From positions 1 through 64,000 of the forward strand of contig VFZL01000020.1 in assembly GCA_016871175.1 (NCBI GenBank): 64,000 nt of DNA, written 5' to 3'. This document shows, piece after piece, positions 43,483-51,773 of the stretch. Source of the stretch: Acidimicrobiia bacterium. GTDB taxonomy: Bacteria; Acidobacteriota; Vicinamibacteria; Vicinamibacterales; CAVVIG01. Made by a program: the position numbers and the translations under genes. Each line of letters opens with the position of its first letter. Position 1 is the first letter of the stretch. The notes beneath the pieces are model-generated. The model saw only the letters and a program-made list of their open reading frames with translations. It did no database searches and was not told where the DNA came from.

Positions 43483-45036
43483 TCACTTCGCGAACCGTCG
43501 TGCGTCGATGCTGTACTTCTTGATCTTGTAGTTGAGCACGCGCTCGGTGGTGTCGAGGAGGCGTGCGGCCTTGGCGCGGTTCCCACGGGTGGTCTTCAAG
43601 GCGTCCTGGAGGAGGTCCTTCTCGAACGCGCCGACGGCGTCCGCCAGCGACATACGCGTGATGGTATTCGACGCTTCCGCGGTCTGAAGTGACGGCGGGA
43701 GATGATGGCCGTGGATCACCTGGCCATCGCACATGAGCACCGATCGTTCGAGTGTGTTCTCCAATTCACGCACGTTGCCGGGCCAGTGATAGGCCATCAG
43801 CATGTCGATCGCGGGCGTCGAGATCCGTTTGATGCTCTTTCGATGCTCTCGAGAAAACTTCTCCAGGAAGTGGTCGACGAGCAAGAGGAGATCCGCTTTC
43901 CGTTCGCGAAGCGGAGGGACAAAGATCGCGAAGACGTTCAGGCGATAGTACAGGTCCTCGCGGAACGTGCCGGCCGCTACCGCACGCTCCATGTCCTTGT
44001 TCGTGGCAGCGACCAGCCGCACGTTCACCTTGATGGTTTCCGTGCTCCCCAACCGCTCGAATTCTCGCTCCTGGAGCACTCGCAGGAGCTTCACTTGGGT
44101 CGTCAGATTGATGTCGCCGATTTCGTCGAGGAACAGCGTGCCGCCCTCTGCCAGCTCGAAGCGGCCCTTCTTGCGCTGCTCGGCGCCGGTGAACGCGCCC
44201 TTCTCGTACCCGAACAGCTCGGACTCGATCAGGCTGTCCGGCAGCGCCGCACAGCTCACTTTCACGAAGGGCTTGTTGGCTCGAGGTGAGTTGTAATGAA
44301 TGGCATGCGCCACGAGCTCTTTGCCGGTACCGGATTCGCCGCGAATGAGCACCGTCGTGTTGGCGCCAGCCACCTGGGCCATCTGCTCGTACATCTGGCG
44401 CACGGGCCCGCTCGTCCCGATGATGCTCGAGAAGTCGTAGCGTTCCTTGAGCTCTTGGCGGAGCTGCGTGTTCTCCTGCACGAGACGTCGCTTGTCGTCC
44501 TCGATGAGCCGCTGAATCTTGATGGCTTGTGCGACGCTTGACGCAACGATGTTGAGAAACTGGACGGTCCGATCGTAGTCGCGGTCGGCTCGGTACTTGA
44601 GATCGACACCGATCGCCCCCACGGCCCGGCGACTCAGGAGAATGGGGACGCAGACGAAGCTCAGCTCTTCTTTGGCCGCCTCGGATCGCTTCGAGGCTCG
44701 GTTCAGGAACGCCGGCTCCTTGCTGACTCGGGGGACGACCACCGGTCGGCCGCTTTCGACGACCCTCCCGATGATCCCCTCCCCGACGCGGTACTTGATG
44801 TGGTGGGACGGACCCTCGAGTCCGTCGGCGGCCTCGATCTGGATCTCACCGTTCTCGTGAAGCAACGTGATTAAGCCACGGATATACCCGTGGTGCTTCA
44901 TCAGAATCTCCAGCACGCGGTGGAGCGAGGACCGAAGATTCAACGTACCAGAAAGCGCCTGACTCACCTCGAGCAGCGTCGCAAGTCGACGCGACTCGCG
45001 CGCTTCGAGGGCGGCGGGGGTCGACGTCTTAGACAT
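43483..45036 (-). CDS. Sigma54-dependent transcriptional activator (GAF-AAA+-Fis)
   Basis: 517 residues. GAF domain about 20-170 ([40 protein letters not shown]). Central AAA+ about 205-430: Walker [21 protein letters not shown], the sigma54-contacting loop [20 protein letters not shown], Walker [21 protein letters not shown], and the R-finger region [20 protein letters not shown]. The Fis-type helix-turn-helix is at the C-terminus ([38 protein letters not shown]). This is the NifA/NorR-like layout. It overlaps ilvC by 8 bases and is the last gene of the ilv operon, so its level would follow valine attenuation. Its target genes are unknown. Confidence 0.92.
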
Positions 45037-49423: not shown

Positions 49424-49431
49424 CAACAAAA

Positions 49432-49475
49432 AGGGCCATCACCCTTCACTGCTGGCCGTGTCGGATGATGGCCCT
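49432..49475 (-). terminator. Attenuator terminator hairpin of the pheA-ilvBNC operon
   Basis: On the minus strand AGGGCCATCA (49475-49466) pairs perfectly with TGATGGCCCT (49441-49432) over 10 bp, followed at once by TTTT GTT (49431-49426): a Rho-independent terminator. The 5' arm is also the partner of an upstream antiterminator segment (49516-49497), so the two structures exclude each other. Confidence 0.85.
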
Positions 49476-49546
49476 AGAACTTGTGCACTGTAGGCGAGGG
49501 CTGTCATCGTTATCCGGCCGGCTCTCCCCCAGCGGAAGAACCGACC
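49462..49546 (-). promoter_or_regulatory. Attenuation control region: pause hairpin and antiterminator
   Basis: Segment 1 (49546-49537, within the leader Val-Val-Gly-Ser codons) can pair over 10 bp with segment 2 (49525-49516) as a pause hairpin. Segment 2's downstream part (CGGAT 49516-49512, GATG 49508-49505, GCCCT 49501-49497) can instead pair with AGGGC-CATC-ATCCG (49475-49462), 14 bp with two 3-nt bulges, as an antiterminator that removes the terminator's 5' arm. Ribosome stalling on the valine codons would block segment 1 and favour the antiterminator. All pairings were read directly from the sequence. Confidence 0.8.
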
Positions 49547-49638
49547 ACCGGAACCACGACCTGGACGGCCCGCAGCTCGAGTCCATCGAGGACGTTCGGC
49601 GCAGGCGGCGAAATCCGAATCGGGCCGACGAACAGCAT
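49510..49638 (-). CDS. Valine-rich leader peptide (IlvL-like) of the pheA-ilvBNC attenuator
   Basis: 42 codons from the ATG at 49638 to TAA at 49512-49510. The peptide starts MLFVGPIRISPPAPNVLDGL and continues with ELRAVQVVVPVVGSS, giving six Val in eight residues (positions 25-32) next to the pause hairpin. Ile, Leu and more Val occur earlier. No Shine-Dalgarno is seen: the mapped promoter would start the transcript only about 1-3 bases before the ATG, so it may be leaderless. Function inferred: a translation sensor of charged tRNA-Val for the downstream operon, as in enterobacterial ilvL and ivbL. Confidence 0.75.
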   Translation of the reverse strand: MLFVGPIRISPPAPNVLDGLELRAVQVVVPVVGSSAGGEPAG

Positions 49639-49647
49639 GTGACAGTA

Positions 49648-49676
49648 ATTACATCGAGTTAGCCGCGATCTGTCAA
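49648..49676 (-). promoter_or_regulatory. Sigma70 promoter of the leader-pheA-ilvBNC operon
   Basis: On the minus strand a perfect -35 TTGACA (49676-49671) and a -10 TGTAAT (49653-49648, 5 of 6 matches) are separated by exactly 17 bp. Transcription would begin near 49641-49640, at the start of the leader peptide. A second TATAAT lies at 49713-49708 without a good -35. Confidence 0.8.
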
Positions 49677-49874: not shown

Positions 49875-51773
49875 TTAGCGCACCGCGGTGGTGCCCGTTG
49901 GCACGACCCTGGCGTGCACGTTTGCCCAGTGGTCCTGTGCTCGCTTCAGCACGTACGCGACATCGCCGTTCAGCAGGTAGCCGCCGGCCACGAGCTTGTC
50001 GGCTGTCGACGTGGCCGCCGCCATGTATGCGGACTCCGAGGCGTAGCGTTCCTCGATCGTTGCGCGGGGGTCGCCCGGCGACTTCGTTTTCGCCGTCTGC
50101 GCGAACGGCACCGCCGAGCCCATCAGCGACACGAGCAGATTCGTCCCGCCGATGCTCGGGCTCCTGAAGTTCCAGCCGGTGTAGGTCGCGACCGGCACCC
50201 CGATCTCGGCCGTTCGGACGCCGGCAAGCTCGTTGCCGTCCGCGTCTACCTGCGGCACGAGGAACGGAATCGGTCGATCATGGATGCGCTGTGCGGGCAC
50301 CGTCCTCGGGGATGCGACCCCAGGGATCGCCGGGAACTTCACCTGCCCGACCGGGACGAGCGTGCCATCCGACAGCCTCGGGTACTGGCTCGCTGGAGGC
50401 ATCTTCCCGCTGCGAACCCATCCGTCCATGGCCGTGACCAACGCGCGAAGCGTGTAGTTGTACTCGACCGGGTTCTCCGGCTGCTGTCCTTGCGTCATAC
50501 GCGAGGGAAAGCGCGAGGGTGAGTGTTGGGTGCCGGTCAGGAAGTACGCCCGCACGTTGTCAGGCAACGGGAGATCAGTTTCGCCGTCGGGCGACACGTG
50601 CACGAGCGCGGCGGACCGCCCTCCGCCCCAGTACTCCACGGCCGAGTTCGTATAGAACACCTTCGGTTGATGAGCCTTGGCTCGTTCGTTTTCCAGGAGT
50701 CCTTCGGTGCGGCCCGAGATCGGATCCGTCGTCGCGCGATCGGCGTACGGGAATCCCGTGGCCGCGAACATCGCGAGTGCATTCGGCGTCGCGCTCCGTT
50801 CGTTGATGCTCAGGCGTGCCGCACCCGCGATGTGCGCCATCACGCCGTCCAGCACGAGCCGATCCTTCTCGTCCGCGTTGAAGCCGTAGTAGAGATACGT
50901 CCGCAAGAAGCGACCGCTCTGCGACGAGCCCCACGCGTAGGTGTGCTTCACGCGCGGGCTCACATCGCCGGTTCCGCCGTGCTTCAACCACGCCGCGAAG
51001 TCACGGTAGGCGGCCAAGCCAACGCCGGCGATGGCGGGATCAGCCGTCCGGTACGCGAGCGTGTAGATCTTCCCCGGCTCGAAGCCGTTCTTCATGGTCA
51101 GCGTGTTGCCTTTGACTTCGTACGCCGCTCGCTCCACGGTCTGCATGGCGCCGTACTGCTCGGTTCGCACGGTGAGCTGCGTGTCGGGACCCGAAACATC
51201 ACTGGGCGGATACCCCGCGAAATCAGCGACGGTCATGCTGGGACCCCTGTCGTTCGGCGTCAGCTCGGCGCGGACGACAAGTGATGTGTTCCTCGCCGTG
51301 GGCGCGTTCATCGTCAGCAGGCCACCCTCGGGTCGGACATCGAACTGCCAGCCCACCCACGCAAGCGTGTAGCCCTGGTGGGTCAAGAAGCCGTCTCCGA
51401 GATCCGCGTCAGTGGACGGGTCCACGTTACCCGGACCGCGGCTGAAGGTGCCGATCAGCCCTTTCCGTCCGCGGTTGGACACCTCCAAGAGCGCCACACC
51501 GTTGGCGCGTGCCGCATCAACCGGGCGCAACAGGTAGAAGTCCGAGGAGAACTCCACCCTTCCCTGAGCGTTCACCAGCGCCTTGTCCAAGTCGACGATC
51601 ACACGATTACGCGCGTGTTTCGGGTCGAGGGCAAAGTGGACCGTGCCCGCGACTTTCTCGTAGCCGGACTCCCCGATCGCTGCCCGGCTCTTGACCTCGA
51701 CCTTCGTCACTTCGGCCCGGACGGTGGGCGCCAGGAGCGCCACGGCACACGCGGCTAGAAGAGCTTTTCTCAT
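49875..51773 (-). CDS. Exported alpha/beta hydrolase-domain protein (Abhydrolase_10 type)
   Basis: 632 residues from the ATG at 51773, with a signal peptide (KALLAACAVALLAPTVRAEV). The frame is open to 52232 but that part is antisense to a lipoprotein gene and not coding. The N-terminal beta region about 30-200 includes GRVEFSSDFYLLRPVDAARA; the middle has the nucleophile elbow TYAWGSSQSGRFLRTYLYYG; the acid and His candidates are in EYWGGGRSAALVH and LTGTQHSPSRFP. The C-terminal part includes AEIGVPVATYTGWNFRSPSI. The family is known only as an alpha/beta hydrolase domain; substrate unknown, perhaps an ester. Monocistronic. Confidence 0.8.
   Translation of the reverse strand: MRKALLAACAVALLAPTVRAEVTKVEVKSRAAIGESGYEKVAGTVHFALDPKHARNRVIVDLDKALVNAQGRVEFSSDFYLLRPVDAARANGVALLEVSNRGRKGLIGTFSRGPGNVDPSTDADLGDGFLTHQGYTLAWVGWQFDVRPEGGLLTMNAPTARNTSLVVRAELTPNDRGPSMTVADFAGYPPSDVSGPDTQLTVRTEQYGAMQTVERAAYEVKGNTLTMKNGFEPGKIYTLAYRTADPAIAGVGLAAYRDFAAWLKHGGTGDVSPRVKHTYAWGSSQSGRFLRTYLYYGFNADEKDRLVLDGVMAHIAGAARLSINERSATPNALAMFAATGFPYADRATTDPISGRTEGLLENERAKAHQPKVFYTNSAVEYWGGGRSAALVHVSPDGETDLPLPDNVRAYFLTGTQHSPSRFPSRMTQGQQPENPVEYNYTLRALVTAMDGWVRSGKMPPASQYPRLSDGTLVPVGQVKFPAIPGVASPRTVPAQRIHDRPIPFLVPQVDADGNELAGVRTAEIGVPVATYTGWNFRSPSIGGTNLLVSLMGSAVPFAQTAKTKSPGDPRATIEERYASESAYMAAATSTADKLVAGGYLLNGDVAYVLKRAQDHWANVHARVVPTGTTAVR

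Follow-up and report, generated by a model that had tools for sequence, protein, structure and literature searches.

A probable leader-peptide attenuator before pheA-ilvBNC shares its switching core with other amino-acid operons of the Acidobacteriota

Leader-peptide attenuators are usually treated as operon-specific elements whose sequences change fast. In enterobacteria, ivbL and ilvL each combine a short open reading frame (ORF) of branched-chain amino acid (BCAA) codons with a mutually exclusive antiterminator and terminator, and we know of no core shared by the enterobacterial attenuators of different operons. T-box RNAs, which bind tRNA directly, have a conserved core and a codon feature that is swapped. 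A further motif, ilvB-OMG, was reportedly first described in a 2017 paper. It consists of an upstream ORF (uORF) before ilvB in which BCAA and Thr codons abound, and the accessible text of its source counts 41 representatives in various phyla (PMC10272879). The accessible portions of four reports (PMC10272879, PMC1262725, PMC8632094, and PMC11109978) mention no core common to operons of different amino acids, and among the open-access matches listed, as far as their available text goes, we found no description of the Acidobacteriota core presented here.

The element lies in the window (the whole stretch of DNA that was analysed, 64,000 nucleotides of contig VFZL01000020.1), where direct reading of the minus strand finds, from 49676 to 49428, a promoter-like site followed by a frame of 42 codons, a 1:2 hairpin, and the antiterminator and terminator (Table 1). 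We interpret these parts, with high confidence, as a ribosome-mediated transcription attenuator in which the switching core is conserved and the sensor codons are exchangeable: its anatomy, its conservation, its covariation, and the in-frame match between codons and operon are observed, and from these we infer all of the ribosome, polymerase, and tRNA steps. The mechanism class itself is already known; what is new is one conserved core, common to operons of different amino acids in much of the phylum, with the leader's stop codon inside the antiterminator.

Table 1. Parts of the attenuator and genes of the operon behind it (positions in the window).
Feature	Position	Strand	Basis
-35 hexamer TTGACA	49676-49671	-	Direct reading; no variation in the ATT and GAC columns across 18 family leaders
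-10 hexamer TGTAAT, without A at position 2	49653-49648	-	T[GCT]TAAT in 18/18 family leaders
Leader peptide ORF, 42 codons + TAA	49638-49510	-	ATG similarly placed in 18 family leaders
Sensor codons VQVVVPVV, six Val in eight	49566-49543	-	Frame-specific Val enrichment in relatives
Pause/protector hairpin, 5' arm	49546-49537	-	Direct reading and fold
Pause/protector hairpin, 3' arm	49525-49516	-	Direct reading and fold
Antiterminator 5' arm, holds leader stop codon	49516-49497	-	Fold; covariation in relatives
Antiterminator 3' arm, overlapping terminator 5' arm	49475-49462	-	Fold; covariation in relatives
Terminator 5' arm AGGGCCATCATCC	49475-49463	-	Fold; covariation
Terminator 3' arm GGGTGATGGCCCT	49444-49432	-	Fold; covariation
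T tract TTTTT	49432-49428	-	Direct reading
pheA, prephenate dehydratase	49244-48426	-	PF00800 3.1e-63; ACT match weak, below cut-off
ilvB, acetolactate synthase large subunit	48338-46635	-	Pfam
ilvN, acetolactate synthase small subunit	46657-46085	-	PF10369 9.9e-30; true start may be internal
ilvC, ketol-acid reductoisomerase	46069-45029	-	PF07991, PF01450

Leader and switch occupy the gap that follows the stop of an alpha/beta-hydrolase gene at 49875 and ends at the start of pheA (49244); both genes are on the minus strand. The leader frame runs from an ATG at 49638 to a TAA at 49512-49510 and translates as MLFVGPIRISPPAPNVLDGLELRAVQVVVPVVGSSAGGEPAG; the preliminary description of this locus, made from the sequence alone, had counted 42 codons with six valines in a run of eight, which direct reading bears out. 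The pause hairpin that it proposed is likewise genuine: its arms pair over 10 bp, two of them G-U, and the local fold reaches a z of -4.94 against codon shuffles. Of the two further helices, the antiterminator pairs only with a bulge and an internal loop, and the terminator, with its T tract, extends over 13 bp including one G-U, and not over the 10 bp first reported. Between the terminator and pheA (49427-49245) motifs of the GATTG/CAATC type recur (GAAGATTGGAGATTGACGATTGCAGATTG and CTTCTTCAATCTTCGATC). At the far end of the operon, a regulator gene of the GAF-sigma54-activator-Fis type (43483-45036, minus strand) follows directly after ilvC, the two frames overlapping by 8 bases; it may belong to the pheA-ilvBNC operon. 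The ilvD gene of this genome sits elsewhere, and the core model has no match at that ilvD locus.

The two promoter hexamers, 17 nt apart, match 11 of the 12 consensus bases. The missing base is the A at position 2 of the -10 hexamer, which is absent from the window and from all 18 family leaders (TGTAAT, TCTAAT, or TTTAAT), so that the earlier label of a near-consensus sigma70 promoter overstates promoter strength. A promoter scan of the window did not list the site at 49676-49648 because it demands that A; a terminator scan, which has a short-loop limit, did not list the hairpin at 49475-49432. Since the leader ATG is only 9 nt past the -10 hexamer, the leader mRNA is expected to be leaderless or almost leaderless, a prediction from the spacing of these sites. 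For Corynebacterium glutamicum ilvBNC, the accessible text of one report places the transcription start a single nucleotide away from the start codon of the leader (PMC11857589). Upstream, a block around TTAT..ATC..GTAAA.ATTATCAATTTGACT is kept across the family; together with the odd -10 hexamer, it possibly points to another sigma factor or an operator.

In the mechanism that we propose, RNA polymerase would initiate a few bases upstream of the leader ATG, with a ribosome following. With enough charged tRNA-Val, the ribosome would reach the stop codon and cover the antiterminator 5' arm that holds it, leaving the 3' partner CAUCAUCC free for the terminator, and transcription would end at the T tract near 49428. 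With charged tRNA-Val scarce, the ribosome would halt on the valine run; the antiterminator arm would then be free to pair with the terminator 5' arm, and pheA-ilvBNC would be transcribed. In the window, the extra hairpin could sequester the antiterminator arm in upstream pairing as long as no ribosome occupies the leader. The codon run would thus set the amino acid that is sensed, the switching core being a module placed before many Acidobacteriota operons.

The 251-nt stretch that holds the element has a minimum free energy (MFE) of -111.5 and a z of -3.57, with one of 200 dinucleotide shuffles equally stable, and an RNA truncated ahead of its last arm adopts the antiterminator (MFE -27.2 kcal/mol). 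At full length, the stalled RNA takes the terminator fold, and kinetic control is therefore needed. Without a ribosome, the upstream pairing outweighs the antiterminator in the window (0.47 versus 0.11). Among 78 aligned class loci, the common antiterminator register has a pairing probability near zero in three: L006 and L007, which are the window and its genus mate, and L070, which aligns poorly. In the first two, the antiterminator forms in a shifted, imperfect register, which, as far as fold predictions go, is a weak point of the window element. The core model R2 scores 48.3 bits at the window's leader, against 13.3 bits at the next independent place in the window.

Conservation was assessed before pheA across the family: 24 of its 27 genomes have a PheA, and at 18 of these 24 loci a promoter, a leader, a stop codon within the antiterminator arm, and a terminator with a T tract precede pheA. 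The 18 leaders, sought in relatives as the preliminary description had proposed, have frames of 18 to 47 codons with 3 to 11 Val codons. Their ATG lies 38 to 43 nt after the -35 match and in frame with the core stop in all 18, a narrow range that is partly by design, as the ATG was sought only 37 to 44 nt after the match. Of the six other loci, L013 has only 22 nt of upstream contig sequence, in L010 the 397 nt between the contig end and pheA contain tandem repeats, and L029 encodes a PheA of 41% identity in another context. In the other three (L022, L025, and L027), pheA, apparently leaderless, comes straight after a promoter of this kind and no attenuator intervenes, and the core model R1 has no match in their genomes (G005, G006, and G010), an arrangement that would fit gain or clean loss of the switch. 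At the level of DNA, a search with the 265-bp leader sequence in 162 genomes of the order gave matches in nine; a lengthy leader match occurs only in the window's own and a same-genus genome, and the other matches cover short stretches.

The gene after pheA at the 18 loci is ilvD in 12 and ilvB in five (the window and its genus mate included), with a contig end in one. Among 100 further loci of the class, the core stands before ilvD 31 times and before pheA once (L240, from the order but not the family); pheA was therefore probably captured between the switch and an ilv operon. The element, which the preliminary description placed at pheA-ilvBNC, is not special to that operon, being one copy of a wide set.

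Pairing evidence comes from two alignments: A4, with the 78 class loci (L070 aligning poorly), and A5, with 23 loci from other classes (17 by computed kinship and six by record title). In A4, 97.2% of terminator cells are paired, and cells changed on both sides number 35, versus 2.2 in shuffled alignments (0/500), in six pairs versus 0.9 (0/500). For the antiterminator, 91.6% of cells are paired, with 30 cells changed on both sides versus 8.8 (0/500). Most of these 30 (22 cells) fall at columns 8-70 and 9-69, which lie inside the terminator loop; because they are unpaired in the terminator, their changes speak for the antiterminator alone, with the qualification that columns 8-70 are unpaired in 23 of 77 sequences and columns 9-69 in 13 of 77. 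Two stricter counts for the A4 antiterminator do not exceed shuffles: pairs with changes on both sides (4 versus 3.1, reached in 102/500 shuffles) and pair types (13 versus 11.7, 123/500). Versions slid out of register pair in 20 to 56% of cells for the antiterminator and 25 to 67% for the terminator. In A5, the terminator has 22 cells changed on both sides versus 8.0 (0/500) and six such pairs versus 3.3 (2/500), with pair types matched in 231/500 shuffles; the antiterminator covaries moderately, with 6 cells versus 2.7 (10/500), four pairs versus 1.9 (3/500), and pair types matched in 46/500. The terminator thus covaries strongly and the antiterminator less strongly: the covarying stems anticipated in the preliminary description are clear for the terminator, and hold for the antiterminator by cells and score but not by the class counts of pairs and pair types.

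Of 93 loci, 83 have a TGA as leader stop at offset 3, within the arm; the window alone has a TAA there, and in the remaining nine a different stop lies at up to offset 14. With upstream sequence masked, as by a stalled ribosome, and the RNA extending to just before the last arm, arm2 and arm3 are predicted to pair with a probability of 0.5 or more in 75 of the 78 loci, all but the three named above; in the state with a ribosome at the stop codon, the terminator remains (mean MFE -25.1). When the ribosome is left out, the upstream pairing is favored over the antiterminator in 19 of the 78 loci, including the window; for most relatives, the antiterminator and not the 1:2 pairing is predicted. 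By these folds, the 1:2 hairpin is present in the window and its genus mate but is not constant across the set.

The codon run follows the operon downstream: it is Val/Ile before ilvD, ilvB, and pheA; Thr/Met before hom-thrC; Thr/Ile before aspartokinase; Leu before leuA; Ile before ileS; and Cys before cysM-like and siroheme genes. The core model R1 spans the last four leader codons to the T tract; the codon run lies outside it, and the correspondence is therefore independent of how the loci were found. Codon statistics cover the last 25 codons less the last four in the 84 of 93 leaders with an assigned class and leave out 40 class loci fetched later. Three loci (L145, L153, and L154) are absent from the leader table since the core pattern is unmatched there, their places being re-read as L205, L206, and L202, and the frame chosen in L116, probably not a leader, is kept in the counts.

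Valine makes up 26.6% of codons in the 49 BCAA-operon leaders in frame, versus 3.0% and 3.9% in the other frames, the conservation of Val codons that the attenuator reading calls for. In the 23 leaders before hom or aspartokinase, Thr reaches 21.1% in frame versus 3.5 and 1.3%, and Met 9.7% versus 0.4 and 0.0% (Thr and Met together, 30.8, 3.9, and 1.3% in frames 0, +1, and +2); in the three leuA leaders, Leu reaches 36.5% versus 16.4 and 1.6%. At least three Val within six codons occur in 42 of 49 BCAA leaders and in none of the 23 hom/aspartokinase leaders, whereas at least three Thr/Met within six codons occur in 20 of the latter and six of the former. When labels were permuted between these two large groups, the observed difference was reached in 0 of 5000 permutations for each of V, T, and M, although the loci are not independent lineages and such counts describe the set rather than give strict probabilities. 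From the end of the cognate run to the stop there is a median of 8 codons (interquartile range 7-10, n = 77; 11 in the window, by eye), a distance that would suit a ribosome halted on the run with the antiterminator arm just uncovered; a ribosome covers up to 12 nt downstream, according to the available part of one source (PMC4833913).

Rarer operons extend the range of runs. The leaders of L193 (..TCTCPRRCVACCCRQDFVCG) and L194 (..ACACPCCCPACCRRQDVVYG) are Cys-rich with weak T tracts; the L194 gene has cysM as its best match (354 bits, below the 394 cut-off), and in L193 a cysteine synthase-like frame is present only in pieces, followed by a JAB-domain gene. The Cys form is also carried by two genomes that each consist of a single contig (G155 and G158). 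The leader before the siroheme genes of L217 ends in ICPICSCCCTTMMPGTSG, and the frame before ileS in L244 holds GIITPIGIPIGIIGAGI after a GTG.

Across the class, R1 matches 102 of 193 genomes at an E value of 0.01 or better, often at several loci, a count in which matches weaker than about 5e-8 are mostly unread and may include ordinary terminators. Besides the 18 pheA loci, we fetched 100 of the listed R1 matches; two places were read twice over the whole set (L142/L178 and L172/L208). The first identified gene is hom in 35, ilvD in 31, an aspartokinase-homoserine dehydrogenase in 7, ilvB in 4, and pheA in 1, amounting to 78 of the 100 loci. Others are a small ORF with a GYG[HFY]G[IV] motif (8), LysR regulators (5), ileS (2; L244 with 732 bits to the NCBIfam ileS model, cut-off 621, and L246 by eye), ilvA (1), a siroheme/uroporphyrinogen methylase pair (1; L217), HAD-biotin carboxylase (1), MFS (2), ABC (1), and GNAT (1). 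In other classes, the core occurs before ilvN-ilvB, ilvD, leuA, gltB, ilvB, and ilvA.

A phylum-wide search with R2 gave matches in 67 of 396 genomes, a figure that overstates the spread of the element because nine of the 20 matches fetched look like ordinary terminators after genes, without a leader (L187-L192 and L198-L200). The other 11 are attenuator-like, one of them (L203) having no leader frame by the rule used. The exact core pattern was found in 30 stretches of a GTDB-based genome collection, 27 with Acidobacteriota-type titles; the other three, titled Woeseiaceae or Acidimicrobiia, seemingly come from genomes of the window's order. A search of a plasmid collection gave no match to the element.

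The small ORFs with a GYG(H/F/Y)G(I/V) C terminus (about 45 to 102 aa; L079, L111, L114, L117, L120, L122, L123, and L234) stand behind the core and Leu/Ile-rich leaders, and in L079, L114, L117, and L120, ilvC is found downstream on the opposite strand. They gave no Pfam family (L117) and no relevant NCBIfam match (L117, L079, and L111), and of 20 stretches with the pattern of a small GYGHG protein in viral contigs, none was confirmed; the products could be peptide precursors or leucine-linked proteins. The core also precedes gltB (glutamate synthase) in L142 and L176, from other classes, with leaders that have no obvious matching codon run, and MFS and ABC transporter genes (L224, L227, and L235), with leaders that have no clear codon run.

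Whether this recurring core, GGAUGAUG...GGCCAUCAUCC...GGAUGAUGGCC with the stop in the antiterminator arm, is one ancestral module that was copied before many Acidobacteriota operons and re-specified by swaps of the codon run (Val/Ile, Leu, Ile, Thr, Met, and Cys) is, in our judgment, an evenly balanced question. Attenuation could be correct and the core nonetheless convergent among operons, e.g., by GAUGAU pairing with runs of AUC or GUC codons; AUC and GUC can indeed pair with GAU, and the last 16 codons are on average more structured than codon shuffles (mean z of -1.44, n = 93; below -2 in 24 of 93 and above 1 in 2 of 93). We consider convergence unlikely, as the same core accompanies Thr/Met, Leu, and Cys runs, and an unpaired TA.CC comes right after the core in 27 of 93 loci of several operon types, versus about 0.3% expected from base composition, although none of the 18 pheA leaders or the 5 aspartokinase leaders has this flank.

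A second alternative is that the leader acts mainly on translation, by reinitiation at or coupling onto pheA, and not on termination. The accessible text of one report does describe leader genes that boost expression by reinitiation at short distance (PMC4833913), but in the window, the pheA ATG comes 265 nt after the leader stop and a covarying terminator with a T tract intervenes, so this seems very improbable. A metabolite-binding riboswitch or T-box-like RNA that overlaps a frame by chance would also bring a conserved core, an intrinsic terminator, and amino-acid genes downstream, but it is scarcely tenable given the dependence on codons, whose identity tracks the pathway, and the absence of an Rfam match (release 15: no family at gathering score in 20 loci; at a permissive cut-off, only unrelated weak matches and no T-box in the window region and eight loci). 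Barely credible, too, is an ordinary intrinsic terminator of the upstream hydrolase gene beside a chance frame: that gene does end upstream on the same strand, and weak core-model matches elsewhere do include plain 3' terminators (the nine of 20 without a leader feature), but promoter-like site and frame stand between gene and hairpin, the conservation before pheA in 18 of 24 relatives and the joint changes of terminator-independent antiterminator pairs speak against such a terminator, and the frame controls, with codon content tracking the downstream gene in frame only, speak against a chance frame.

For a ribosome-mediated attenuator with a recurring core, several uses follow. One model finds copies across several amino-acid pathways; the leader hints at the amino acid to which an operon answers and can thereby aid the annotation of pathways and of genes of unknown function; and the set of cores allows one to ask how an attenuator changes specificity. 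If the single-module history is true, the element would be a translation-read counterpart of the T-box and possibly the phylum's main amino-acid feedback system.

Several described systems resemble parts of this element. Going by the accessible text of their sources, actinobacterial attenuators also have short ORFs of Ile, Val, and Leu codons and terminators before ilvB, but their codon runs overlap the candidate terminator (PMC1262725). The Corynebacterium ilvBNC attenuator, or ilvB-II motif, shares a BCAA-rich uORF with a terminator and an antiterminator (PMC10272879 and PMC11857589, in part); unlike the core described here, it is reported for ilvB and Corynebacterium, and the loci searched match no Rfam family, a collection that may lack ilvB-II. 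The ilvB-OMG motif, compared by its partial description only, is similar in its BCAA/Thr-rich uORF before ilvB (PMC10272879), and the Acidobacteriota core may overlap with it. The preliminary description had likened the window element to a full enterobacterial ilv attenuator with three mutually exclusive pairings, of which the antiterminator and terminator stand and the 1:2 hairpin proves inconstant (19 of 78 loci). The likeness to the enterobacterial ilvB and ilvGMEDA leaders (ivbL and ilvL) lies in the short ORF of BCAA codons, the exclusive antiterminator and terminator, and the BCAA operon downstream; the Acidobacteriota element differs in its stop codon inside the antiterminator arm, in its inconstant 1:2 hairpin, and in a core common to operons for different amino acids. 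In this last respect it recalls the T-box, by analogy only: both have a conserved switching core with a codon feature swapped between operons for different amino acids, but the T-box binds tRNA directly, whereas here the sensor would be a translated codon run.
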